DNA of 64,000 bases, from positions 62,001 through 126,000 of the forward strand of contig JACKMB010000004.1 of the NCBI GenBank assembly GCA_024235615.1, given 5' to 3'. This document shows positions 14,523-31,753 of the stretch, piece after piece; positions within the stretch are counted from its first letter, which is position 1; each line of letters begins with the position of its first letter. The stretch comes from Thauera sp. GTDB lineage: Bacteria; Pseudomonadota; Gammaproteobacteria; Burkholderiales; Rhodocyclaceae. Below the pieces are notes generated by a model that was not told where the DNA came from, did not search any database, and was given only the letters and a program-made list of their open reading frames with translations. The translations under genes and the position numbers were made by a program.

Positions 14523-14909
14523 TCACGACGGCCTGCGGCCATCCTGGCCGTCCCTGCGCACCTCGTCCTCGACCTCCACCTCGCGGATCACCTCGCCCTC
14601 GATGATCAGCCCGCGGTTGCCGCCGGCCGGGCCGTAGCCGCCCGCCCGCCCGCCGCCTGCGGACGCCTGCGCGTCCATCTGCGCACGCATCGCCTTGCGC
14701 AGCGCGCGCGTCTTCCACCACACCCAGCCCCAGATCGCCACGCCGGCGGTCAGCAGCACCGCGAAGAAGGCGACCGAGAAGGTCAGCGCGAGCATGAACA
14801 CGCCCGCCATCACGACCGCGCCGACCACCTTCTGCAGCAGCGTGGGCGGCTTGGCGGCCGGTCCGCCGAGGGTCTGGAAGAGGCCGGAGAATCGGGGATC
14901 CCTGTACAT
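14523..14909 (-). CDS. Hypothetical two-helix inner-membrane protein
   Basis: A 128-residue protein, start chosen at MYRDPRFSGLF (14909). A short cytoplasmic N terminus precedes two adjacent hydrophobic helices (about 25-65: VVGAVVMAGVFMLALTFSVA then FFAVLLTAGVAIWGWVWW). Then comes a basic/amphipathic segment, a Gly-rich linker and an acidic strand (GLIIEGEVIREVEVEDEV). I do not recognise the family; the last part resembles a short beta-hairpin oligomerisation strand. The upstream in-frame extension to 15020 is not supported. Confidence 0.6.
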   Translation of the reverse strand: MYRDPRFSGLFQTLGGPAAKPPTLLQKVVGAVVMAGVFMLALTFSVAFFAVLLTAGVAIWGWVWWKTRALRKAMRAQMDAQASAGGGRAGGYGPAGGNRGLIIEGEVIREVEVEDEVRRDGQDGRRPS

Positions 14910-15067
14910 GAGTCGGTCCTGTCGGGCGGCGCGGACCATCCGCGCCGCATGCGGAAGTGTGAGCCCCCGCCGGAAAAAAGATTCCACGCGAGCCGGGGTG
15001 CGCATGGATTGCTTACACATTCTCGCCCAAGCGGGCCGCCCTTGCCGAGTTCACCGGCCGCCCCCCC

Positions 15068-16399
15068 TGTAGGAGCGGCGGCAGCCGCGAAGGAGGCGGT
15101 GCGGCGGCCATGCGCAGGGGCGGTGGTGCCGACACCGGGCGAGGGCGACTTTGCCAGCGCCGCATTCGCGCCTGCCGGCGCTCCTACAGCGGGCAACCGG
15201 CCTTCGACGCGCGCGAATCTGCGCCGAGCGTCTCCGCCCCCCCTGTAGGAGCGGCGGCAGCCGCGAAGGAGGCGGTGCGGCGGCGATGCGCAGGGGCGGT
15301 AGTGCCGACACCGGGCGAGAGGCGACTTTGCCGGCGCCTCATTCGCGCCTGCCGGCGCTCCTACAGGACACCGCCGCGGCTGCGGGGGCAAACGGGCAAT
15401 CGGCCTTCGACGCGCGCGAATCTGCGCCGAGCGTCTCCGCCCCCCCTGTAGGAGCGGCGGCAGCCGCGAAGGAGGCGGTGCGGCGGCGATGCGCAGGGGC
15501 GGCGCGGTGCCGACACCGGCGAGAGCGACTTTGCCAGCGCCGCATTCGCGCCTGCCGGCGCTCCTACCGGACACCGCCGCGGCTGCGGGGGCAAATGGGC
15601 AATCGGCCTTCGACGCGCGCGCGCGATCTGCGCCGAGCGTCTCCGCCCCCTGTAGGAGCGGCGGCAGCCGCGAAGGAGGCGGTGCGGCGGCGATGCGCAG
15701 GGGCGGTGGTGCCGACACCGGGCGAGGGCAATTGTGCCAGCGCCGCATTCGCGCCTGCCGGCGCTCCTACAGGACACCGCCGCGGCTGCGGGGGCAAATG
15801 GGCAATCGGCCTTCGACGCGCGCGAATCTGCGCCGAGCGTCTCCGCCCCCCCTGTAGGAGCGGCGGCAGCCGCGAAGGAGGCGGTGCGGCGGCGATGCGC
15901 AGGGGCGGTGGTGCCGACACCGGGCGAGGGCGACTTTGCCAGCGCCGCATTCGCGCCTGCCGGCGCTCCTACAGGACACCGCCGCGGCTGCGGGGGCAAA
16001 TGGGCAATCGGCCTTCGACGCGCGCGAATCTGCGCCGAGCGTCTCCGCCCCCCCTGTAGGAGCGGCGGCAGCCGCGAAGGAGGCGGTGCGGCGGCGATGC
16101 GCAGGGGCGGTGGTGCCGACACCGGGCGAGAGCGACTTTGCCAGCGCCGCATTCGCGCCTGCCGGCGCTCCTACCGGACACCGCCGCGGCTGCGGGGGCA
16201 AATGGGCAATCGGCCTTCGACGCGCGCGAATCTGCGCCGAGCGTCTCCGCCCCCCCCTGTAGGAGCGGCGGCAGCCGCGAAGGAGGCGGTGCGGCGGCGA
16301 TGCGCAGGGGCGGTGGTGCCGACACCGGGCGAGGGCGACTTTGCCAGCGCCGCATTCGCGCCTGCCGGCGCTCCTACAGGACACCGCCGCGGCTTCGGG
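15068..16399. repeat. Array of seven ~203-bp tandem units, each a head-to-head REP pair
   Basis: Units begin at 15068, 15244, 15447, 15651, 15853, 16055 and 16258 (spacings 176, 203, 204, 202, 202, 203). Each starts with TGTAGGAGCGGCGGCAGCCG and, about 100 bases later, carries the inverted element TTCGCGCCTGCCGGCGCTCC followed by TACA. Each REP is a GTAG-headed imperfect hairpin (GCGGC-GGCA-GCCGC or GCGCC-GGCA-GGCGC stem). The sequence between them is almost identical from unit to unit, indicating recent tandem amplification. Open frames across the array are repeat artefacts. The array fills the divergent space between the two-helix protein and fetA. Confidence 0.93.
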
Positions 16400-20434: not shown

Positions 20435-21493
20435 TCACGCCGCCACCAGGCGGCGGAAGAGGCCGAAGCTCCACTGCGCGCCCACGGTCAGCACCACCAC
20501 GCGCAGCACGTGGCACACGGTAACCAGGGGCACGCCCAGCTGCAGCACCTTGGCGGTAATGCACATCTCCGACACGCCGCCGGGTGCCGTCGCCAGCGCC
20601 AGGGTCGGCAGCGGCACCTCCGAGACCAGTCCGAGCAGGGCCGCGAGGGCGAACGCGAGCACGATCGACATCGCTCCGGTGAGGGCCGCTACGCTCATGA
20701 AGCGCGGCGCGGCGCGGAAGAACGCGCGCGAGAAGCGGCAGCCGAGGGCGCAGCCGATCAGCAGCTGTCCGCCATTGACGACCCAGGGCGGCAGCGCCGA
20801 GAGCGGCACGCCGGCCAGCGTCGCCAGCGCCACGCCGAGCAGCGGCCCGAGCACCCACGCGTTGGCGATGCGCAGCAGCTTGAACGCCCCCACGCCGAGC
20901 AGGCTCGCACCCACCAGCAGCGGAAAGTGCTGCGCATCCACCTCGCGGGCCAGGGGCACATAGACGTCGCTGCCCTGCACCCCGGCGAAGGTGAGCGCGA
21001 AGGGCAGCACCGACACCACCATCATGACCCGGATGGCGTGCGCCGCGGCGATGCGGTCCACCGCGCCGCCGTGGCGGTCGGCGAGGTTGGCCATCTCCGA
21101 GGCGCCGCCCGGCAGGGCGGCGAAGAAGGCGGTCGGCGCATCCACCCCCCCGAGGCGCAGCAGGATGAAGGCGTAGGCCATGCCGAGCACCAGCGAGCCC
21201 AGCGCGGCCGCGATCACCAGCGGCGCATGCAGGCCGAGCTGCGCCACCACCTCCGGGCTGAAATACAGCCCGAGCGCCGCCCCGATCGCCCATTGCCCCG
21301 TCTGCCTCCCCCCGGGGAGCGGACGCAGGTCGATGTCGGCCATGCGTGCGCCGGCCACGGCGAAAAGCGGACCGATCATCCACGGCAGCGGCAGGTGCAG
21401 GCGCTCGGCCAGCCAGCCGGCGAGCGTGGCGAGCGCGAGGGTGGGAAGGACCTGGCGCCAGGCGGTGAGACGGAGTGCGGAGATTGCGGACAT
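20435..21493 (-). CDS. AbrB-family integral membrane protein (putative transporter or regulator)
   Basis: A 352-residue membrane protein with two repeated halves, each with several helices. Conserved blocks are LPWMIGPLFAVAGARM, ALPGGASEMANLADRHGG, and in the second half VVNGGQLLIGCALGCRFS and ATAPGGVSEMCITAKVLQL. The two PGG(A/V)SEM motifs are the hallmark of the AbrB family (annotated as ammonia monooxygenase or AbrB duplication proteins; no enzyme activity is established). It lies 113 bases downstream of the periplasmic binding protein on the same strand and may share its transcript. Confidence 0.85.
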   Translation of the reverse strand: MSAISALRLTAWRQVLPTLALATLAGWLAERLHLPLPWMIGPLFAVAGARMADIDLRPLPGGRQTGQWAIGAALGLYFSPEVVAQLGLHAPLVIAAALGSLVLGMAYAFILLRLGGVDAPTAFFAALPGGASEMANLADRHGGAVDRIAAAHAIRVMMVVSVLPFALTFAGVQGSDVYVPLAREVDAQHFPLLVGASLLGVGAFKLLRIANAWVLGPLLGVALATLAGVPLSALPPWVVNGGQLLIGCALGCRFSRAFFRAAPRFMSVAALTGAMSIVLAFALAALLGLVSEVPLPTLALATAPGGVSEMCITAKVLQLGVPLVTVCHVLRVVVLTVGAQWSFGLFRRLVAA

Positions 21494-21606
21494 CGCCGGG
21501 AGATCGGGAGGAGACGTGGAAAGGGACGCTCGGGCGACAACGCGATCGGAGATCACGCTGCGCAGCGATGGCGGGCGCGGACCGGGTACCGGGTCGGCAG
21601 GGGGCC

Positions 21607-22716
21607 TCACTCGGAAAGCGGCCGGGTCTCCGCATCCCACTGGCGCAGGAAGGCCTGCTTCTTGGCCTGGTCCTGGTAGGCGAGCAGCCCGGAGCCGATG
21701 CGGATCGGACGGAAGGCATGCTTGAGGTTCTGGTGGAGCAGGGCGGCGGCGCTGTCCGCGCCCGCGGTGCCAGCGTCGGTGCGCACCGGCAGCAGGCCGA
21801 GGTTGGCGGCGAGCAGGGCCTGGCCGCGGGTCGACAGCAGGTGGTCGAGCCACAGCCGCGCCGCCGCCGGATGACGGGCACCGCGGGCGATGAATGCGAC
21901 CCGGCTCAGCACCAGGGTGTAGTCCTGTGGCAGCGCAACACCGAGCGCCGGGTCGCTGCGCGCACGCCGGTGCGCGTACGAGCCGAGCACGTTGTAGGCG
22001 AGCACCAGCTTTCCGGCGGCGACGCGGTCGAGCATCTCGCTGCTCACCGCATGCTGCTCCAGGCCTTGCCGGCCCATGCCGCGCGCGAGCTGCCAGAACA
22101 CGATCGGGTTGGCCTGCGCGTCCTGGGTGTGCAACAGCAGGCCGAGGCCGGAGCGCTCGGGGTCGTAGGTGGCGATGCGCCCGCGCAGCTGCGCCGGGTC
22201 GCGATCGAGCAGGCGGATCAGCTCGGCATGGCTGCCGGGGACGTCGGCCCCGTCGAGCAGGCGCTTGTTGTAGACGATCACCGCCGGCTCGTAGGTGGTG
22301 CCGAAGGCCTCGTCCTTCCACACCGCCCAGCGCGGCAGCGCCGCAGTCTCGGCGGAGCGGTGCGGCTGGGCGTGGCCGTCATTGACCAGCTTGACCTGCA
22401 GGTCCATCGCCGAGCTCCACACCACGTCGGCGCCGGGCACTCCGCGCCGGGCCTCGTCGACCACGCGCGCATGGAGCTGTGCCGAGTGCATGTCGTGGTA
22501 CTGCACCCGGACACCGGGATGCAGGGCCTCGAAATCGTCGATGACCGGCTTCACCACCTCGAGGTCGGTCGCCGCATAGACGACCACCACGCCCTCCAGG
22601 CGTGCCTGATCGAAACGGTCGGCGATCTGCTCGGCCCGTGCCGTCACGGTCGCCGCGGCCAGCGCGACGAATGCCAGCACCGTCTTCACCCAGGCCCGCG
22701 CACCGCTGATCCTCAT
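21607..22716 (-). CDS. Orphan periplasmic ABC-type substrate-binding protein
   Basis: A 369-residue exported protein (signal peptide 1-28, ending ATVTARA). It resembles the iron/phosphoglycerate-type binding proteins (AfuA/PgtC group): GVVVVYAATDLEVVKPVIDD, ADVVWSSAMDLQVKLVNDG, EPAVIVYNKRLL. A very strong AAGGAGG lies 6 bases before the ATG at 22716. No permease or ATPase gene is adjacent. Instead it is divergent from a TctD/TctE-type two-component system, and a copy of the shared 20-bp site lies in its promoter region. PgtC-like proteins can act in signal sensing, so a sensory partnership with the kinase is plausible but inferred. Confidence 0.82.
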   Translation of the reverse strand: MRISGARAWVKTVLAFVALAAATVTARAEQIADRFDQARLEGVVVVYAATDLEVVKPVIDDFEALHPGVRVQYHDMHSAQLHARVVDEARRGVPGADVVWSSAMDLQVKLVNDGHAQPHRSAETAALPRWAVWKDEAFGTTYEPAVIVYNKRLLDGADVPGSHAELIRLLDRDPAQLRGRIATYDPERSGLGLLLHTQDAQANPIVFWQLARGMGRQGLEQHAVSSEMLDRVAAGKLVLAYNVLGSYAHRRARSDPALGVALPQDYTLVLSRVAFIARGARHPAAARLWLDHLLSTRGQALLAANLGLLPVRTDAGTAGADSAAALLHQNLKHAFRPIRIGSGLLAYQDQAKKQAFLRQWDAETRPLSE

Positions 22717-22828
22717 CCCCCTTCCTCCTTGTGCTCCGGATGCACGCGGGTCCGCATTGCGATGCGGGCAATGCCCCGCATGCGCCGCCTTGGACGCACC
22801 CCGCCTTTGCGCCGATAATCCCGCACAC

Positions 22829-22848
22829 GCCTTTCGATTCACTTTCAG
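22829..22848 (-). promoter_or_regulatory. Inferred TctD-type response-regulator binding site, copy 1
   Basis: On the + strand this reads GCCTTTCGATTCACTTTCAG. It contains two CTTTC half-sites 11 bases apart (one helical turn), typical of OmpR-class regulators. Nearly identical sites occur at 25079-25098 and 30092-30111. All three have the same orientation relative to a downstream gene; here that gene is the binding protein (ATG 113 bases away). Confidence 0.7.
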
Positions 22849-22859
22849 CGGGAACACCG

Positions 22860-23549
22860 ATGCGCCTGTTGCTGGTCGAGGACCACGCCGAACTCGCCGA
22901 ATGGGTGGCGCGCTCGCTCCGGCACGCCGGTTTCGTGCTGGATGTGCTCAATCGTGGCGACCACGCCGACCAGGCCTTGCGCACCGAACGCTACGACCTG
23001 GTGATCCTCGACCTGTCGCTGCCCGGGCTGGACGGCCTCGAGGTGCTGCGCCGCCTGCGCAGCCGCGAGAGCGGCCCCGACAAGCCGGCACCCACGCCCG
23101 TCATGGTGCTCACCGCGCGCGGCAGCACCGATGAGCGCGTGCTCGGGCTCAACCTCGGCGCCGATGATTATCTGCCCAAACCCTTCGAGCTCGCCGAACT
23201 CGAGGCGCGCATCAAGGCGCTGCTGCGCCGTGCCGGCAACCAGGTGCCGCTGGTGCGCCTGGGACGGCTCGAGTTCGACACCACCACCCGCATGGCGGCG
23301 GTCGACGGCCAGGCGCTGGCGCTGACCCCGCGCGAGCTGGCCGTTCTGGAAGCGCTGCTGGCCCGGGTCGGCCGCCCCGTGGCGCGCGAGGCCCTGTTCG
23401 AGAAGGTGTTCGAGTTCGATGCGGACGCGCGCGTGGAGGCGATCGAGATCTACGTCTCGCGGCTGCGCAAGAAGCTCGAAGGCGCAGGCGTGGCGATCAA
23501 CACGCTGCGCGGCCTCGGCTACCTGCTCGCCGAGAAGCCGGCAGCCTGA
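22860..23549 (+). CDS. OmpR-family response regulator, TctD-like
   Basis: A 229-residue regulator. The receiver domain (1-120) has acidic Glu7/Asp8, phospho-acceptor Asp51 (ILDLSLPGLDG), Thr85 and Lys107. A winged-helix DNA-binding domain follows (125-225; LTPRELAVLEALL, VEAIEIYVSRLRKKL, IRTLRGLGYLL-type end). The following kinase starts 1 base after the stop. The adjacency to tctCBA and a porin suggests control of tricarboxylate uptake, as for TctD of enteric bacteria and pseudomonads. The upstream binding site suggests it acts on its own divergent region. Confidence 0.9.
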   Translation: MRLLLVEDHAELAEWVARSLRHAGFVLDVLNRGDHADQALRTERYDLVILDLSLPGLDGLEVLRRLRSRESGPDKPAPTPVMVLTARGSTDERVLGLNLGADDYLPKPFELAELEARIKALLRRAGNQVPLVRLGRLEFDTTTRMAAVDGQALALTPRELAVLEALLARVGRPVAREALFEKVFEFDADARVEAIEIYVSRLRKKLEGAGVAINTLRGLGYLLAEKPAA

Positions 23550-23550
23550 C

Positions 23551-25047
23551 ATGGCCGGCAGTTCCGGGTCCGGACCGGAAGGCCTCGGCGCGGACGAGCG
23601 CGGGCGGCCCACGACCGGACGCACGACGCCGGGGACCGCCGCCGCACACGGCGGCAGCCTGCGCCGACGCGTGCTGGTGTGGCTGCTGCCTCCGCTCGCA
23701 GTGCTGCTCCTCGTCAATGCCTTCTTCACCTACCGCAGCGCGCTCGACGCAGTGAACCAAGCCTACGATCGCACGCTCACCGCATCGGTGCGCGCGATCG
23801 GCGAACGCACCCACTCGCTCGCCGGCCAGATCCAGGTCGACATCCCCTACGCCGCCTTCGAAGGCTTCGAGGCCGACGCCGCCGAGCGCATCTTCCATGC
23901 CGTGTTCGACCCCGCGGGCGGGCTGGTCACCGGCTACGTCGACCTGCGCCCCCCGGAGCTGCCCGCGGACGACGGCAGCGTGCGCATCTTCGACCTGCGC
24001 TATGCCGGCGAGACGGTGCGCCTGGCGGCGATGCGCAAGCGCCTCTACGACCCCGCGCTGCGCGGCGGCGATGCGGTGCTGATCGTCTTCGCCGAGACCA
24101 CCGGCGCGCGCCGGGCGCTGGCGCGCGATCTGTTCGTCGCCAGCCTGCAGCGCCAGTCGCTGCTGGTGGCGGTGGGGGCGATCCTGGTGCTGGCCGCGCT
24201 CGGCACCGCATTCCGCCCGCTGCTGCGCGTGCGCGACCACATGCGCACACGCGACGAGGAGGATCTCACCCCGATACGCATGGAACGCGTGCCGAGCGAG
24301 ATCGCACCGCTGATCGACGCGATCAACCACCACATGGAGCGCCTGTCGGCGATGCTCGCGGCGCGCCGGCGCTTCCTCGCCGACGCCGCGCACCAGATCC
24401 GCACGCCCCTCGCGGTGCTCACCACGCAGGCTGAATACGGCCTGCGCCAGACCGACCCGGAGGAGATGCTGGAGACCTTCGCCAGCCTGCTGCGCAGCAC
24501 CCGGGCGGCGCGCCGGCTGGCCAACCAGATGCTGACGCTGTCGCGCGCCGAGGCGGTCAACGGCGTGATCGGCGAGCGCGCCACGCTCGACCTCGCCGGC
24601 CTGGTCAAGGACGTCGCGATGGAGCTCGCCCCGCTCGCGCTCAAGCGCGACATCGACCTCGCCTACGAGGGCATCGGCCACGCCCTGGCCATTCAGGGCA
24701 ACGCCCCGATGCTGCGCGAGATGGTCTCCAACCTGATCGACAACGCCATCCGCTACAGCTCGCCCGACTCGGCGGTGACCGTCGCCGTCGCCACCTTCGG
24801 CGAGGACGCGGTGGTGAGCGTCTGCGACCAGGGACCGGGCATTCCGGCAGCCGAGCGCGAGCGCGTGTTCCAGCGCTTCTACCGCATCCTCGGCCAGGGC
24901 GACAGCGAAGGCAGCGGCCTGGGCCTGGCGATCGTGCGCGAGATCGCGCTCGCCCACGGCGGCCGCGTGACGCTGCGCGACGGCGAGGGCGGGCGCGGCC
25001 TATGCGTGGAGGTCGAGCTGCCGCTGGGCAGCACCCCCGGCGCGTGA
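23551..25047 (+). CDS. Sensor histidine kinase, TctE-like
   Basis: A 498-residue inner-membrane kinase. Transmembrane helices at about 41-60 and 201-221 flank a ~140-residue periplasmic sensor. The phospho-acceptor is His281 (FLADAAHQIRTPLAVL). The ATPase domain carries the N box (EMVSNLIDNAIRY), G1 (VCDQGPGIP) and G2 (GSGLGLAIV). The N-terminal 35 residues are Gly/Ser/Pro-rich and unlike the family, so a later start is possible, although the ATG is right after the regulator stop. Two-component partner of the preceding gene; ligand probably a di- or tricarboxylate, by inference. Confidence 0.9.
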   Translation: MAGSSGSGPEGLGADERGRPTTGRTTPGTAAAHGGSLRRRVLVWLLPPLAVLLLVNAFFTYRSALDAVNQAYDRTLTASVRAIGERTHSLAGQIQVDIPYAAFEGFEADAAERIFHAVFDPAGGLVTGYVDLRPPELPADDGSVRIFDLRYAGETVRLAAMRKRLYDPALRGGDAVLIVFAETTGARRALARDLFVASLQRQSLLVAVGAILVLAALGTAFRPLLRVRDHMRTRDEEDLTPIRMERVPSEIAPLIDAINHHMERLSAMLAARRRFLADAAHQIRTPLAVLTTQAEYGLRQTDPEEMLETFASLLRSTRAARRLANQMLTLSRAEAVNGVIGERATLDLAGLVKDVAMELAPLALKRDIDLAYEGIGHALAIQGNAPMLREMVSNLIDNAIRYSSPDSAVTVAVATFGEDAVVSVCDQGPGIPAAERERVFQRFYRILGQGDSEGSGLGLAIVREIALAHGGRVTLRDGEGGRGLCVEVELPLGSTPGA

Positions 25048-25078
25048 ACCGGCCTCTTCTCCTCGTCTCCGCATCACG

Positions 25079-25098
25079 CTGAAAGCCGATCGAAAGGC
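25079..25098 (+). promoter_or_regulatory. Inferred TctD-type response-regulator binding site, copy 2 (porin)
   Basis: The + strand reads CTGAAAGCCGATCGAAAGGC, the reverse complement of the consensus found at 22829 and 30092. It ends 71 bases before the porin start codon, in the same orientation as at tctC, so it is likely an activator site for porin transcription. Confidence 0.7.
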
Positions 25099-25169
25099 GT
25101 CGGCGCTGCAATGCGCGCCACGCGCCCGATTCACCCGGCGCGTACATCCGAACGATCGAGGAGACTCCC

Positions 25170-26213
25170 ATGCAACGCCTTTCCGCGCCGGCCCTGATGG
25201 CCGCCGCCCTCGCCCTGCCATCGCTCGCGCTGGCCCAGTCCAACGTCACCGTGTACGGCCTGATCGACCTCAACCTCGGCTACGAGAGGTCCGGATCGCA
25301 ACGCTACGAGGGCGTCGGCCACGGCGAGCTCAACGGCTCGCGCCTCGGCTTCCGCGGCACCGAAGACCTCGGCAACGGCAACAAGGCCCTGTTCGTGCTC
25401 GAGAGCGGTTTCGACCCCTCGACCGGCCTCGCCGAGCAGGGCGGGCGGCTGTTCGGCCGCCAGTCCTTCGTCGGCCTGGAGAACGGCCTCGGCCGCGTCA
25501 CCCTAGGGCGGCAGTACTCGCCCGCCTTCGATGCGCTCGACCCCTTCGACGCCACCGGCAACGCCGACCGCAGCGCCGGCCTGCTGATCCGCAAGACGGG
25601 CGCCGTCAAGCCCGCCTACGAGGTGCGCTTCGACAACATGATCAAGTACCGCTCGGCCAAGCTCTCGGGCTTCGAGCTCGAGGCCGGCTACTGGTTCGGC
25701 AAGGAGGCCGGGACCGATTCGACCGCGCGCCAGGAAGGCGACGGCCACGGCATCGCGCTGCTCTACGCCAACGGTGCGTTCGCCGGCGCGCTGACGACCC
25801 AGTCCGTACAACGCGACGCCACCGGCGGCAAGGTGCGCACGAGCGGCTTCGGCGCGGCCTACGACTTCGGCACCTTCAAGCCCTACTTCGCCTGGTCGCA
25901 GGACAAGGAGAGCGGCAGCGTGGGCAGTGGCAAGGCGCGCAGCTGGGACCTCGGCACCGAGATCCGCATCGATCCTGCGAACACCGTGGCGCTGAGCTAC
26001 GCCGACCGCGACGAATCCGACGGCGCCGCGAGCGAGGATGCCCACGGCTGGTCGGCCTACTACCTGCATGCGCTGTCCAAGCGCACCACGGTGTACGCCG
26101 GCTACTCGCAGCTCGACAACGACAACGGCGCCAACTACGCCATCGGCAACCTGAGTCCGGCAGCCGGGGACAAGCACCAGGTCATGATGGCCGGCATGCG
26201 CCACCGCTTCTGA
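25170..26213 (+). CDS. Gram-negative porin (Omp32-like)
   Basis: A 347-residue outer-membrane beta-barrel. The signal peptide ends ALPSLALA before QSNVTVYGLIDLNLGY, the typical start of betaproteobacterial trimeric porins, and the chain ends in Phe (MRHRF) for BAM recognition. Internal strands alternate hydrophobic residues with many Gly/Tyr, and a PFDATGNADRS constriction-loop-like segment is present. Its position between tctDE and tctCBA, and the shared upstream site, suggest an entry pore for anionic organic acids, as with OpdH in Pseudomonas. Substrate is inferred. A strong intrinsic terminator follows. Confidence 0.93.
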   Translation: MQRLSAPALMAAALALPSLALAQSNVTVYGLIDLNLGYERSGSQRYEGVGHGELNGSRLGFRGTEDLGNGNKALFVLESGFDPSTGLAEQGGRLFGRQSFVGLENGLGRVTLGRQYSPAFDALDPFDATGNADRSAGLLIRKTGAVKPAYEVRFDNMIKYRSAKLSGFELEAGYWFGKEAGTDSTARQEGDGHGIALLYANGAFAGALTTQSVQRDATGGKVRTSGFGAAYDFGTFKPYFAWSQDKESGSVGSGKARSWDLGTEIRIDPANTVALSYADRDESDGAASEDAHGWSAYYLHALSKRTTVYAGYSQLDNDNGANYAIGNLSPAAGDKHQVMMAGMRHRF

Positions 26214-26241
26214 TCGATCCGGCAAGGCGACGCTTTGTTGC

Positions 26242-26284
26242 AAGGCAGGTGCACGCGGGAACCTCCCGCTCCACCTGCCTTTTT
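26242..26284 (+). terminator. Intrinsic terminator of the porin gene
   Basis: The stem AAGGCAGGTG ... CACCTGCCTT contains an inner GCGGGA/TCCCGC extension and is followed by TTTTT. It lies 29 bases after the porin stop codon. Confidence 0.92.
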
Positions 26285-26467
26285 GCGTCTACGCGCCACC
26301 TTTGCAGCGACGGTGCCCGGCAACCCCGACCACAGCCGAACCCGGCGGCGGCCGTCTCGCTTTTCTGCCGTTTCCTTCCCTTCCCGAACCCGCGACCCCG
26401 ACATGAAGCAAGGCCCGCTCCAGGGCGCCTCGGCCTGCGGCACGGCGGGCGAGGTCACGCCGGAAGG

Positions 26468-26841
26468 TTCGCGGCTGCCGCCGCTCCTACAGGCGGGCCG
26501 GGACGCGTGGCGGGGCTCCGGGACACGTGGTGGTTCCTGTAGGAGCGCCGGCAGGCGCGAAAACGGCGGTGTCGTCCGGGACGCGCGTCATTTGCCGGAC
26601 CGTCGTGTTCGCAGCTGCCGCAGCGCCTACAGGCGGGCCGGGACGCGTGGCGGGGCTCCGGGACGCGTGGTGGTTCCTGTAGGAGCGCCGGCAGGCGCGA
26701 AAACGGCGGTGTCGTCCGGGACGCGCGTCGTTTGCCGGATCGCCGGATTCGCAGCTGCCGCAGCGCCTACAGGCGGGCCGGGACGCGTGGCGGGGCTCCG
26801 GGACGCGCGCTGGTTCATGTAGGAGCGCCGGCAGGCGCGAA
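26468..26841. repeat. REP-pair array, 140-bp period
   Basis: Direct elements TGTAGGAGCGCCGGCAGGCG start at 26538, 26678 and 26818, exactly 140 bases apart. Inverted partners (TTCGC(G/A)GCTGCCGC...CTACAG) are at 26468, 26606 and 26748. The spacers are near-identical between units but differ from those at other loci. The array lies between the convergent ends of the porin and tctA and is flanked by two intrinsic terminators. Confidence 0.92.
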
Positions 26842-26880
26842 TGGGGCGCTGGCGATACGCTCGGCGCTCAGGCGCACGCG

Positions 26881-26909
26881 CAAAAAAATGAGCGCCCGCA
26901 GGCGCTCAT
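26881..26909 (-). terminator. Intrinsic terminator of tctCBA
   Basis: A 9-bp stem ATGAGCGCC / GGCGCTCAT (26888-26896 with 26901-26909) has a CGCA loop. On the minus strand it is followed by seven T residues, the end signal of the tctCBA operon. Confidence 0.9.
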
Positions 26910-27003
26910 CGAAAATGCAGCAGGCCCGAACGGAGGCCCGCCGCGATCGCGGATTCCGGTCATGGGAGGAGCACCCCGGAATCCGTGGAGGTGATCGTCG
27001 CGA

Positions 27004-28506
27004 TCAGGCGGCGGCCGCCTTGCGCTGCTCGATCATGCGCATCAGGCGCGGCCCCACCAGCATCGCCACCGCAGCCACCCACAGGCCGATCGAGATCGGG
27101 CTGGCGAACAGCACGCCGACGTCGCCGTCGCTGATCGACAGGGCGCGGCGCAGGTTCTGCTCCATCATGTCGCCGAGCACGAAGCCGAGGATGAAGGGCG
27201 CGATCGGGAAGTTCATCACCCGCAGCAGGTAGCCGACGCCGCCGATCAGGGTGCCGAGGATGAGGTCGAAGGTCGTGCCATGCACCGCATACACGCCCAC
27301 CAGCGAGATCGCCGCCACGCCCGGCACCAGCAGCCAGTTGGGGATCGAGAGGAACTTCACGAACACGCGGATCAGCGGGATGTTGAGCACCAGCAGCATC
27401 ACGTTGGCGATGAAGAGCGAGGCGATCAGGCCCCACACGATCACCGGCTGGTCCTGGAACAGCGTCGGACCGGGGGTGATGTTGTACAGCGTGAGCGCAC
27501 CGATCATCACCGCGGTGGTGCCCGAGCCCGGCACGCCCAGGGTCAGCATCGGCACCAGCGAGCCGTTGGCCGAGGCGTTGTTGGCCGCCTCGGGTGCCGC
27601 GACGCCGCGGATGTCGCCGTTGCCGAACTGGTGGTCCTTGCCCGCCATGCGGCGCTCCATCGCGTAGCACATCGCCGAGGCGATGGTGGCGCCGGCGCCC
27701 GGCAGCACGCCGATGAAGAAGCCGGAGAAGGCGGAACGCAGCATGGTCCACTTGGCCAGCATGAGCTCCTTCATGTTGAACAGGATGCGGCCGGTGATGG
27801 TGATCGGCTCGCTCGCGGTGTGCTCGTTCTGCAGCATCAGCATCAGCTCGCTGACCGCGAACAGGCCGATCACGATGACGATGAAGGGGATGCCGTCCTG
27901 CAGGTGCAGCATGTCGAAGGTGTAGCGATAGACGCCGCTGTTGGCGTCGATACCCACGGTCGACAGCAGCAGGCCGATCAGGCAGGCGGTCATCGCCTTG
28001 GGCAGCGAGTCGCCGACCAGGCCGCCGAGGCAGGACAGCGCCAGCACCATCAGCGCGAAGTATTCCGCCGGGCCGAAGGCGATCGCCCATTCGGCGAGCA
28101 GCGGCGCAAAGGCGACGATGCCGATGGTGGCGAGCAGGGCGCCGGTGAAGGAGGCGAGCGCCGACATCGACAACGCCGGCCCGGCGAGGCCCTTCTTGGC
28201 GAGCGGATAACCGTCGAGCGTGGTCATCACCGCACCGGCGTCGCCGGGCACGTTGATCAGGATCGCGGAGATGCGGCCGCCATACTCGCAGCCGGCATAC
28301 ACCGCGCACAGCAGGATCAGCGCCGACTCGGGCGGCAGCTTCATCGCGAACGCGATCGGCAGCAGGATGGCGACGCCGTTGATCGGGCCGAGGCCGGGCA
28401 GCAGGCCGACCACGGTGCCGATGAAGCAGCCGATCAGCGCGATCATCAGGTTCTCGGGCGTGCCGGCGACGGCGAAGCCCTGCATGAGCATAGACAAGGT
28501 TTCCAT
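27004..28506 (-). CDS. tctA: Tripartite tricarboxylate transporter large permease TctA
   Basis: A 500-residue inner-membrane protein with about 11-12 helices. The family blocks GLLPGLGPINGVAILLP (near the N terminus) and GVLPGAGATIASAMCYAMERR with GVAAPEAANNASANGSLVPMLTLGVPGS (centre) are clear. TctA is the main transport subunit, working with TctB and periplasmic TctC in sodium-dependent uptake of citrate-like acids. It starts 3 bases after tctB. Substrate is assigned only from family and context. Confidence 0.95.
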   Translation of the reverse strand: METLSMLMQGFAVAGTPENLMIALIGCFIGTVVGLLPGLGPINGVAILLPIAFAMKLPPESALILLCAVYAGCEYGGRISAILINVPGDAGAVMTTLDGYPLAKKGLAGPALSMSALASFTGALLATIGIVAFAPLLAEWAIAFGPAEYFALMVLALSCLGGLVGDSLPKAMTACLIGLLLSTVGIDANSGVYRYTFDMLHLQDGIPFIVIVIGLFAVSELMLMLQNEHTASEPITITGRILFNMKELMLAKWTMLRSAFSGFFIGVLPGAGATIASAMCYAMERRMAGKDHQFGNGDIRGVAAPEAANNASANGSLVPMLTLGVPGSGTTAVMIGALTLYNITPGPTLFQDQPVIVWGLIASLFIANVMLLVLNIPLIRVFVKFLSIPNWLLVPGVAAISLVGVYAVHGTTFDLILGTLIGGVGYLLRVMNFPIAPFILGFVLGDMMEQNLRRALSISDGDVGVLFASPISIGLWVAAVAMLVGPRLMRMIEQRKAAAA

Positions 28507-28509
28507 GGC

Positions 28510-28953
28510 TTACCCCAGGATGCCGTTGAGCCACAGCCCGGTCGGCAGCGCGACATCGAGCAGGCGGTCGAAGAAGAAGAACATGCCCACGCCGAGGCCG
28601 AGGCCGCCGACGATGCCCTGCCTCCAGCTGCCGCCGAAGAAGCGCGCCACCGGTACGGTCATCAGCGCGGTCGCGATCACGAAGCCGAGCTTGTCGAAGA
28701 GCAGCGCGTAGGCGAGCACGATCAGGAACAGCAGGCCGATGCGCTTGAGCACCGGGGGCGGCGCCCACACCGTCTCGCTCTTCTTCTCGAGCATCAGCGC
28801 GATCGCGCACAGGCCGAGCAGGAACAGCACCAGCAGCGGGAAGGCGCGCGGCCCCACCGGCTCGTAGGACATCGGCGCCTGCAGGTCCCAGCCGATCCAG
28901 ATGCCGGCCAGGCTCACCAGCAGCAGCACGCCGCCGAAGATTCTTTCACTCAT
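28510..28953 (-). CDS. tctB: Tripartite tricarboxylate transporter small membrane subunit TctB
   Basis: A 147-residue protein with four hydrophobic helices, usual for TctB. Start chosen at MSERIFGGVLLL (28953), with GGGAG about 8 bases upstream. The YEPVGPRAFPLLVL segment is typical of the family. Second gene of tctCBA, between tctC and tctA. Confidence 0.9.
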   Translation of the reverse strand: MSERIFGGVLLLVSLAGIWIGWDLQAPMSYEPVGPRAFPLLVLFLLGLCAIALMLEKKSETVWAPPPVLKRIGLLFLIVLAYALLFDKLGFVIATALMTVPVARFFGGSWRQGIVGGLGLGVGMFFFFDRLLDVALPTGLWLNGILG

Positions 28954-29028
28954 GGTCGAACTCCCGTGCGCCGCCTGCGATAGCACCCGATCGGGCGCCG
29001 GCAGGCCGGCAGGGTTTGTGGCGGAGGC

Positions 29029-30009
29029 TTACTGGGTGACGAGGCCGAGCTCGGTCGCGAGCTTCTTGAAGCGCTGCACTTCCTGCTTCACGTACTCGGT
29101 CGCCGCCGCGCCGGTGCGGGCGAAGGGGAACAGGCCACGCTCGGCGCGCAGCTTGTCGAACTCGGACGAGGCCAGCATCTTGTCGAAGGTCGCCACCCAC
29201 CAGGCGTATTCCGCTTCGGCAACCTTGGGGCCGACGTAGTAGCCGCGGGCGATGGTCCAGTCGACCTTGTAGCCCTGCTCGATCGCGGTCGGGATCGCCG
29301 CCAGTTCGCCCGGCAGGCGCTCGGGGGCGAGCACCGCGAGCACGCGCACGCGACCGCCCTTGAGGTGTGCAGCCACCTCGGAGGCGTCACCCGAATACAC
29401 CTGCACATGGCCGCCCATCAGCGCGGTCATCGCCTCGCCACCGCCCTCGAAGGCGACGTAGCGCATCGACTTGGGATCGACCCCCGCCTCGCGCGCGATC
29501 AGCGCCGACTTCATCCAGTCCTGGCTGCCCACCGAACCGCCCGCGCCGTACACCACCTTGCCCGGAGTCGCGCGGGTGGCCTCGATCAGGTCCTTGAGGC
29601 TCTGGAAGGGCGAGTCCGCGCGCACGATGATCGCGCCATAGTCGGCACCGACCGCGGCGACCCACTTCACGTCATCCTCGGTGTACTTGCCGAACTTGCC
29701 GATGGCCAGGTTCAGGAAGGAGCCGCCGGAGAAGGCCACCACCGTGCCGGCCTCGGCCGGGCGGTTGGCGATCACGGTGTTGTAGGCCACCGCGCCGATG
29801 CCGCCGGGCATGTAGGTGACGCGCATCGGCGCCTCGAGGTAGCCGTTCTGCAGCGCGCTCTGCACCAGCTTGCAGGTGAGGTCGAAGCCACCGCCGGGCT
29901 TGGCCGGGGCGATGCACTCGGGCTTCTCGGGGGCGGCGTGGACCACACCGGCGGCGAGGGTGGCGAGCACCGCGGTGGTGGCGGCGAACAGGGTCTTCTT
30001 GAGCAGCAT
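29029..30009 (-). CDS. tctC: Tripartite tricarboxylate transporter substrate-binding protein TctC
   Basis: A 326-residue periplasmic binding protein. The signal peptide is residues 1-25 (ending VVHA). The PGGGFDLTCKLVQSALQ segment, MPGGIGAVAYNTV and VVYGAGGSVGSQDWMKSALIAREAG are TctC/BugR-like ligand-contact regions. GGAGGAG lies just upstream of the ATG and forms one arm of a large inverted repeat. A copy of the inferred TctD site is 83 bases upstream. First gene of tctCBA; likely ligand a citrate-like tricarboxylate. Confidence 0.93.
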   Translation of the reverse strand: MLLKKTLFAATTAVLATLAAGVVHAAPEKPECIAPAKPGGGFDLTCKLVQSALQNGYLEAPMRVTYMPGGIGAVAYNTVIANRPAEAGTVVAFSGGSFLNLAIGKFGKYTEDDVKWVAAVGADYGAIIVRADSPFQSLKDLIEATRATPGKVVYGAGGSVGSQDWMKSALIAREAGVDPKSMRYVAFEGGGEAMTALMGGHVQVYSGDASEVAAHLKGGRVRVLAVLAPERLPGELAAIPTAIEQGYKVDWTIARGYYVGPKVAEAEYAWWVATFDKMLASSEFDKLRAERGLFPFARTGAAATEYVKQEVQRFKKLATELGLVTQ

Positions 30010-30015
30010 GGTGAT

Positions 30016-30091
30016 CTCCTCCGTATCGGAATGTGTTCGCTGCAGGCGGACGCGTGCCGCCTCGCAGGGTGAGGCGGACGATACGGAGGAG
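30016..30091 (-). promoter_or_regulatory. Nested inverted repeats sequestering the tctC ribosome-binding site
   Basis: A perfect 12-bp inverted repeat pairs 30016-30027 (containing the tctC Shine-Dalgarno GGAGGAG on the minus strand) with 30080-30091. Inside are a 7-bp hairpin (30057-30063 with 30071-30077) and an alternative pairing (30045-30049 with 30057-30061) that cannot form at the same time. If transcribed, this leader could hide the ribosome-binding site. The outer arm also abuts the regulator site at 30092, so it may instead act as DNA. The transcription start is unknown. Confidence 0.5.
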
Positions 30092-30111
30092 GGCTTTCGA
30101 TTGGCTTTCAG
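30092..30111 (-). promoter_or_regulatory. Inferred TctD-type response-regulator binding site, copy 3 (tctC)
   Basis: The + strand reads GGCTTTCGATTGGCTTTCAG, matching the sites at 22829 and 25079 in at least 16 of 20 positions, with CTTTC repeats 11 bases apart. It lies 83 bases before the tctC start in the activator-like orientation shared by all three copies. Confidence 0.7.
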
Positions 30112-30157
30112 TGCATTGGGTGGCCGGATGCGTCGATCCGGCTGCCGGTTCGACGCC

Positions 30158-31753
30158 TTACGGATGCCGCCAGAAGGCGTGCGCCTGGAAACGGCTGTTC
30201 AGCCACCACGCGCCTGCCGCCGCCCCGCGCAGCACGTTGCGCGTACCAGCCTGGGATTCGAGCGGGCGCACGACTTCGTCCTGCGCGTTGCGCACCGCCT
30301 TCGCGTCGCCGGTCTCCGGCACCACCACGGTGATGTGGCCCGGGCGGTTGAGGTCCACCCGGCGGGCGACGATCACACACACCTGGCCGGCATTGGCCGC
30401 CGCCTGCAGCGCGGTGAGCTCGACCTCGCGCTTCCAGCCGAAGGCAGGACCGTGGTCCTCCAGCCAGTCGTAGAGCGAGTTGGCGTTGAGCTCGCGCACT
30501 GTGCGGCCGTATTCGACCGCCACCTGGGCGCCCTCGCGCAGCTGCAGCAGGGCGCGGTCGGTCCACCACACCCGCGGCAGATAGACGCCGCACAGGTAGG
30601 CAAGATCGGTCGCGTAGATGTTGCAGTAGGTGGTTCCGCCTGCCGGCCGGTAGCGCAGATGGGCGGGGTTGGCGACGGCGAGGTAATCGACGATCGCCGA
30701 CACCGACGCCGCCAGGCTCGCCGCGTCGCCGCCAGCACGGACCGGACGGCCGGCTTCGCCGAGCGGATAGGCTCGACCGCCGTCGCGGCGGCGGGTGATG
30801 TCGGCACGATCCTGCTGCATGTGTGCCGCAGGAAGGGCAGCGGCCGGAGCCGGGGCGGCGGGCACGGTTGCCGCACCACGGCTGGTCGGCAACGCCTTGA
30901 GATAGCGCTCGGCGACCACGCCCTCGCGCAGCAGCCCGCTCAGGGACACACGGATGCGCACCCAGCCGGACTCGCCGGCGGGCCCGAGCACCTGCACCTC
31001 CTTGCCCTGGTTGAGCACACCGATCCGCGTGCGATCGGCGACCACTGGCGCGCTGCGCAGCGTGAGCTGGGTGGCGCCGACGCGATGCGAGGGCTGCAGC
31101 ACCGCGGGCTGCGCGGCGGTGTCCACCGTGCCGGCCGCCGCCAGCTCGCGCAAGGTGCGCTTTGCCGTGCGCAGGAGCTCGAGACGGTGCTCGTATCCGA
31201 TCAGCCCGCCGTTGATCCGGCGCGTGACCGCGCCGAGGTCGTCGACATCGGCGAGCGCATTCAGCCCGTTGCAATCCCAGTAATACACCGCGGACTCGAC
31301 CGCGTAGCGCTCCGCCACCCAGTCCGGGTGAGTCACCACGTCGGCACCGCACCATTGCGCGAAGCTGCGGTAGTTGTCCTTGCCGGTGAGCTGGATGAGG
31401 CCGCGGCCGCGATAGCGGTAGCCGTCGCCGCTGGACTCCGGGCCGTTGCCCATGCGGCTGGCGTAGACGCGGTTGGCGATGTGCTCGGGCTGGCGTGCGT
31501 GGGCCGCCGCCTCGGCGTCGCTGCGGTAATACTTGCGGAAGACCCTGCGCAGACCCTCGGCGGAATAGTTGAGGTTCTCCTCCGTCAGGCGCAGGCCGCC
31601 CGATTCGTGCATCACCTGCGCGAGAAAGTGGGCGATGCGCAGCTCGGTGTCGATGCCATGCACCGCCATCGCCGCATTGAGCGCATCGAGGTGGCGATCG
31701 GCATGCGCTGGCGAGGCCCCCATCCGGGTGAGCAGTTCGCGCGTGACCAGCAT
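30158..31753 (-). CDS. GH19-like lytic domain protein with SH3-type domain (endolysin-like)
   Basis: A 531-residue protein without a signal peptide. Residues 1-190 form a GH19 chitinase/endolysin-type domain: AHFLAQVMHESGGLRLTEEN with Glu50 and Glu59 as candidate catalytic acids, and YRYRGRGLIQLTGKDNYRSF. Residues 195-275 look like a bacterial SH3 domain (GATQLTLRSAPVVADRTRIG). After an Ala/Pro linker, a C-terminal ~190-residue domain of unknown type contains YCNIYATDLAYLCGVYLPRVW. The start (31753) has AGGGAGA just upstream. Such proteins cleave peptidoglycan in phages or as effectors; no phage genes are nearby. Confidence 0.75.
   Translation of the reverse strand: MLVTRELLTRMGASPAHADRHLDALNAAMAVHGIDTELRIAHFLAQVMHESGGLRLTEENLNYSAEGLRRVFRKYYRSDAEAAAHARQPEHIANRVYASRMGNGPESSGDGYRYRGRGLIQLTGKDNYRSFAQWCGADVVTHPDWVAERYAVESAVYYWDCNGLNALADVDDLGAVTRRINGGLIGYEHRLELLRTAKRTLRELAAAGTVDTAAQPAVLQPSHRVGATQLTLRSAPVVADRTRIGVLNQGKEVQVLGPAGESGWVRIRVSLSGLLREGVVAERYLKALPTSRGAATVPAAPAPAAALPAAHMQQDRADITRRRDGGRAYPLGEAGRPVRAGGDAASLAASVSAIVDYLAVANPAHLRYRPAGGTTYCNIYATDLAYLCGVYLPRVWWTDRALLQLREGAQVAVEYGRTVRELNANSLYDWLEDHGPAFGWKREVELTALQAAANAGQVCVIVARRVDLNRPGHITVVVPETGDAKAVRNAQDEVVRPLESQAGTRNVLRGAAAGAWWLNSRFQAHAFWRHP

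Follow-up and report, generated by a model that had tools for sequence, protein, structure and literature searches.

The stretch of DNA analysed here (the window; 64,000 nucleotides of a Thauera sp. contig, JACKMB010000004.1) carries genes for a TctD-like OmpR-family response regulator and a TctE-like sensor kinase (tctDE), which lie among genes for three kinds of transport protein: an extracellular solute-binding protein (sbp), a porin and the tctCBA products. Three copies of a 20-bp site are located upstream of these transport genes. It is very probable that they are the binding boxes of the TctD-like regulator (22860-23549), from which transcription of sbp and the adjoining AbrB-type gene (sbp-abrB), the porin gene and tctCBA would be driven, as predicted from the comparisons described below.

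Gene organization and the three boxes

The sites and the genes around them are as follows (positions in the window).

22829..22848, plus strand: box 1; minus-strand reading CTGAAAGTGAATCGAAAGGC, promoter side toward sbp, 11 bp from the ATG of the response regulator
22815..22820, minus strand: -10-like hexamer GATTAT, 8 nt past box 1
25079..25098, minus strand: box 2; plus-strand reading CTGAAAGCCGATCGAAAGGC, upstream of the porin gene
25107..25112, plus strand: -10-like hexamer TGCAAT, 8 nt past box 2
30092..30111, plus strand: box 3; minus-strand reading CTGAAAGCCAATCGAAAGCC, upstream of tctC
30078..30083, minus strand: -10-like hexamer TATCGT, 8 nt past box 3
22791..22819, plus strand: sigma70-like promoter match TGGACG-17-GATAAT, reading into the response regulator
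22860..23549, plus strand: TctD-like OmpR-family response regulator, 229 aa (PF00072 and PF00486 above cut-off)
23551..25047, plus strand: TctE-like sensor kinase with 2CSK_N (PF08521), HisKA and HATPase_c domains
21607..22716, minus strand: extracellular solute-binding protein, sbp (SBP_bac_11/8/6/1 families)
20435..21556, minus strand: AbrB-type membrane protein (PF05145), after sbp; start uncertain
25170..26213, plus strand: Gram-negative porin (Porin_4)
29029..30009, minus strand: tctC, receptor of the tripartite tricarboxylate transporter (PF03401 above cut-off)
28510..28953, minus strand: tctB (PF07331 above cut-off)
27004..28506, minus strand: tctA (PF01970 above cut-off)

The original prediction, made from the sequence of the window, had placed three tandem sites at these positions, and its coordinates and strands are all correct. 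It claimed agreement at 16 or more positions; by direct comparison the pairwise identities are 17, 17 and 18 of 20, and the 11-base spacing of the CTTTC half-sites is borne out. As had been stated, the sites precede transport genes in one orientation, the strand on which the motif was first written being antisense to each of these genes. On the strand that faces the transport genes, the box has the sequence CTGAAAG-NNNA-TCGAAAGSC, i.e., two direct 7-bp repeats with a 4-bp gap and an 11-bp period, a layout that matches the sites of response regulators of the OmpR/PhoB family. The distance from box to start codon is 112 nt for sbp, 71 nt for the porin gene and 82 nt for tctC. Box 1, located in the divergent gap between sbp and the regulator gene, also points into the latter, 11 bp off its start codon (22860).

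Chance matches had been thought very unlikely, and four matches with up to three mismatches occur in the window where 0.01 are expected (100 shuffles). The motif is also not common genome-wide: in the 4.01-Mb genome there are three exact matches, none with one or two mismatches and two with three (one match in the backwards control), so that the three sites are the only places within two mismatches. An origin of the sites by chance or by a recent segment duplication has their mutual similarity in its favor and nothing beyond it; the shuffle expectation, the differing flanks of the three sites and the persistence of box and -10 hexamer across species reduce it to a negligible prospect. The observation of three sites is thus confirmed, and is stronger than first stated.

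Of the 14 PF00486 matches in the genome, a single one falls within the window, so the regulator is indeed the sole local member of the OmpR class. No plasmid match for it was found at E<=1e-60. The kinase adjoining the regulator has a 2CSK_N domain, which we take to be a feature of TctE. TctC, TctB and TctA families, all above cut-off, occur together in the window and make up a tripartite tricarboxylate transporter (TTT).

The solute-binding protein had been regarded as an orphan that the sites join to uptake. The promoter at box 1 does face sbp, but the gene is not alone, as the AbrB-type membrane gene follows it. A relative of this gene is present in 34 of the 90 other loci searched, and in 27 of 35 loci, the window counted, it lies within approximately 260 bp of the binding-protein gene; the AbrB-type protein may be the membrane partner of the binding protein. 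Structure prediction of the binding protein from two sequences gave a mean pLDDT of 40.5. Its nearest solved relatives are 3c9h and the 7f6e series, which presumably bind metal-citrate, a point that a literature search did not confirm.

Two further observations concern the surroundings. A gene for a GH19 chitinase-like protein (30158-31753, minus strand) adjoins box 3 and is found beside tctC in several genomes of the same genus as well, and a GC-rich repetitive stretch at approximately 14800-16200 has repetitive open frames on both strands.

Promoter register and co-occurrence with the regulator

A -10-like hexamer starts exactly 8 nt past each box in the window, and this register is retained in relatives. 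Among the first aligned loci (window included), the hexamer at +8 of 16 binding-protein sites is GATTAT (13), GAATAT (2) or GATCAT (1); TGCAAT stands at +8 in 11 of 13 porin sites and one base closer in the other 2, and 11 of 13 tctC sites have TATCGT, the remaining two having TATCTT and TAATGT. A 20-position weight matrix, built from 30 aligned boxes with the -10 left out, was used to scan the window and 90 fetched loci. At a threshold score of at least 19 it returned 130 sites, 108 of which precede a gene for a binding protein, a porin or TctC; 104 of the 108 are non-redundant, training sites included. At least four of the six letters of TATAAT are found at offset 8 in 96 of these 104 boxes, as compared to 19 of 104 at the next best offset, and after collapse to 29 genus-by-target classes the values are 25.7 of 29 and 6.3, respectively. 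When box and -10 were combined in one pattern and up to three mismatches were allowed, only the same three places were recovered in the genome of the window; over 65 genomes, 58 had matches, and the backwards control gave 4 hits in all.

In a scan of 22600-30300, no sigma70-like promoter match was found at the three transport promoters. The only match in this interval is the one that reads into the regulator gene; it is weak, with an average of 0.5 in shuffles, and box 1 begins ten bases past its end (22819), near the expected transcription start. At the transport promoters, a -10 at a fixed distance and no independent -35 are what is found at activator boxes of the OmpR/PhoB type.

Could the sites instead be operators of a repressor? 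Box 1 overlaps the likely start of tctD, and the action of TctD-TctE on opdH in Pseudomonas aeruginosa is described as derepression (PMC6403454). On the other hand, the box takes the place of the -35 element and is followed by a -10 at a constant distance, the transport genes have no sigma70-like match, and in P. aeruginosa the induction of opdH by citrate needs tctD (PMC10865840). Repression at the transport genes is therefore unlikely, and we favor activator boxes.

Relatives were scanned for the motif, as the original prediction had proposed, and the box was found to co-occur with an orthologue of the TctD-like regulator across genomes and genera. Orthologues (regulator identity approximately 67% or more) are carried by 65 genomes: 58 of 395 genomes of the family, six more, and one with a partial gene. 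With at most one mismatch, the box is present in 54 of these 65, at 102 places (9 in the backwards control), and exact boxes occur at 48 places in 34 genomes. By comparison, 16 of 65 genomes without the orthologue have a match, none of them exact, and in the same-family subset the figure is 9 of 45. Fisher's test of box against orthologue gives 2e-11, a value that is optimistic given the relatedness of the genomes and the loci chosen for holding a box. Beside the regulator gene itself (score of at least 14, within 260 bp) a box is found in 48 of 63 testable loci. Moreover, box and TATCGT precede tctC genes that are only about 30% identical to that of the window in G016, G113 and seven genomes of a third genus; since these tct operons are not orthologous, the site follows the regulator and not the gene.

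A different regulator encoded elsewhere, with the proximity of tctDE a coincidence, might be considered in a genome with 14 OmpR-type DNA-binding domains. However, the box tracks the TctD-like regulator from genome to genome and between genera, one box lies right beside the gene for this regulator, and two paralogous TctD-like loci of the same genome (L174, L175) have no box at a matrix score above 14. We judge such a regulator improbable, slightly more so than the repressor operators considered above. The proposed link between the sites and the TctD-like regulator is thus supported by co-occurrence, by the boxes at non-orthologous tct operons, by the repeat geometry and by the fixed -10 register.

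Several findings weigh against this assignment. The best hit of the regulator is the curated TctD model NF012023, but its score of 259 bits falls under the cut-off of 337, which is why we use the name TctD-like. The -10 is missing from 8 of the 104 boxes; 11 of the 65 orthologue-bearing genomes are without a box at one mismatch or less, and 15 of the 63 loci have none beside the regulator. In two genomes of the same genus (G014, G018), with regulators of 81-82% identity, the boxes are degenerate, and a Cupriavidus locus (L066), in which a 56% regulator lies beside a 47% binding protein, had no box in the scans made. Conversely, genomes without the orthologue hold 18 one-mismatch places, vs. 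1 in the backwards control. Finally, the genomes are related by descent, and the presence of a box was the reason for fetching some of the loci.

Six isolated matches to the box (L172, L178-L182), all in relatives, were taken as chance, as none is upstream of a TctC, porin or binding-protein gene; five of the six lack the -10 at +8, and L182 has GATGAT. Separately, a box with TATCGT precedes a YjbE/TerC-family gene at L285:7996 (minus strand), L287:2543 (plus strand) matches it by flank, and a similar box place exists in three more genomes of the same genus as these two loci.

Known systems and relatives outside the family

The TctD protein of P. aeruginosa regulates both opdH-tctCBA and the gene that encodes it, each of which is preceded by a TctD motif (PMC4513871), and TctED induces opdH-tctABC on citrate (PMC10865840). 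Similar to the system in the window, that of P. aeruginosa consists of an OmpR-family regulator and a kinase that target an outer-membrane porin, tctCBA and the regulator's own gene, and it is citrate-inducible there (PMC4513871, PMC10865840, PMC6403454). In contrast to P. aeruginosa, the porin and tct genes of the window are in two operons, each with its own box, and there is an additional sbp-abrB operon. The likeness to the P. aeruginosa TctD motif, whose letters are given only in a figure (PMC4513871), is one of placement. The box was not found in the parts of the literature searched, and the motif in that figure could be the same. In Bordetella pertussis, BctDE-bctCBA is likewise a two-component pair activating a TTT operon, in which citrate signaling needs the binding protein; it differs in gene order, and the account available in part has no porin or ABC-type binding protein (PMC5812351). 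The repeat geometry itself is shared more widely: 7-bp repeats with a 4-bp spacer fit the OmpR/PhoB regulator family, including PhoP and the pho box, whereas half-site sequence and targets differ (PMC4832192).

When the comparison was extended to other families, ten named relatives, mostly Comamonadaceae (L069-L073, L076, L077, L079, L091, L104), with regulators 44-50% identical to that of the window, were found to carry direct repeats GACAG-N6-GACAG with an 11-bp period in the gap between regulator and tctC, facing tctC. Their half-site is GACAG, as opposed to GAAAG in the boxes of the window, and the -10 is at the same +8 place in seven of the ten. A loose pattern, chosen after the data had been seen, placed box and -10 upstream of 7 of 79 named regulators, as compared to 7 of 8000 stretches taken at random. 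Three more relatives of the regulator (L289-L291), from other families and 50-55% identical, came from a search of 369 genomes of the class. Each of them carries an exact pair of repeats that points away from the regulator, of the GAAAG type in two loci and of the GACAG type in one, and in two of the three a -10 (at least 4 of 6 letters) stands at +8. Among 17 weaker relatives scanned, these three included, an exact pair facing away is present in five (L052, L054, L289, L290, L291), three of which have the -10 at +8, and the other 12 have no exact repeat pair. The loci L289-L291 thus appear to lend support to a promoter grammar that extends beyond the family. A recognition-helix code, in which EIYVS/HRLRKK would specify GAAAG and EVVVYRLRKK would specify GACAG, was considered and is contradicted by L291 (EIYVSRLRKK with GACAG) and L289 (VELIVFRLRKK with GAAAG).

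Proposed mechanism, substrate and implications

Our data are consistent with two regulator molecules binding head-to-tail on the 7-bp repeats at the -35 position; together with the -10 that lies a constant 8 nt further on, the bound regulator would recruit RNA polymerase to sbp-abrB, the porin gene and tctCBA. Citrate in the periplasm, or a tricarboxylate like it, is the probable signal of the partner kinase (23551-25047), and a binding protein might present it. Binding at box 1 may also repress tctDE, because this box lies near the predicted start of the regulator transcript, 11 bp before the start codon. Box 1 is therefore a candidate autoregulatory site, at which the activated regulator might act as a repressor.

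The original prediction further connected the binding protein and the porin to citrate-type uptake. This is plausible and finds indirect support in the P. aeruginosa precedent and in ATP-citrate-lyase-like (AclA-like) genes of relatives; citrate is the likely substrate. An AclA-like gene is present in the fetched locus of at least 19 of the 65 genomes that carry the regulator (the loci are partial), and in 14 of these 19 it lies directly behind the porin gene. Of these 14 porin genes, 8 have a box scoring at least 19 and 4 a weaker one (14-17). The AclA-like gene has its own box in four genomes, in two of them without a good -10. In the relatives, PF16114 and PF08442 score above cut-off, AclA carries the citrate-binding domain of ATP-citrate lyase, and the best solved relative of both AclAB-like subunits is citryl-CoA synthetase; the match to the C-terminal citryl-CoA lyase model is weak (24.6 bits vs. 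a cut-off of 212). No close AclA match was found in the genome of the window, where the one match (24% identity, E 2.9e-11) is taken as a succinyl-CoA ligase. At the position that aclAB-like genes occupy in relatives, behind the porin gene, the window has three tandem 140-nt repeats. They fill 26467-26886, between the porin gene and tctA, and have inverted ends; the second and third copies are 94% and 75% identical to the first.

That the regulon serves another carboxylate, such as a C4-dicarboxylate or an aromatic acid, is quite conceivable, although we hold it to be the less probable case. TTT receptors bind many ligands, terephthalate-binding and Bug proteins are among the closest receptors of known structure, and a dcuC gene is preceded by a box in two relatives of one genus. 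Against this stand the gene resembling citryl-CoA synthetase and ATP-citrate lyase in the loci of the 19 relatives mentioned, and the response of the known TctDE and BctDE systems to citrate, as described in the sources cited above. Further boxes in one relative are located at genes for malic enzyme (-10 TATCGT) and carbonic anhydrase (no good -10).

Taken together, the original prediction was correct as to the sites and, for the most part, as to the regulon, which comparison between genomes supports well. TctDE citrate regulons are already known from P. aeruginosa, and the system in the window would be another instance. The link to a citrate-cleaving enzyme in relatives is attractive and unproven. 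Tentatively, and with slightly less than even confidence, we propose that a family-wide TctD box controls a full inducible citrate module, made up of porin, TTT, binding protein with AbrB-type partner and, in numerous species, an enzyme like ATP-citrate lyase with which heterotrophs would cleave the citrate taken up, and that the grammar of an 11-bp repeat pair (GAAAG or GACAG) with a -10 at +8 is common to TctD-like regulators of several other families. If so, the targets of these regulators could be read from sequence, which provides a testable box and promoter rule, and uncharacterized porins, binding proteins, AbrB-type membrane proteins and an ATP-citrate-lyase-like enzyme would be tied to one uptake pathway.

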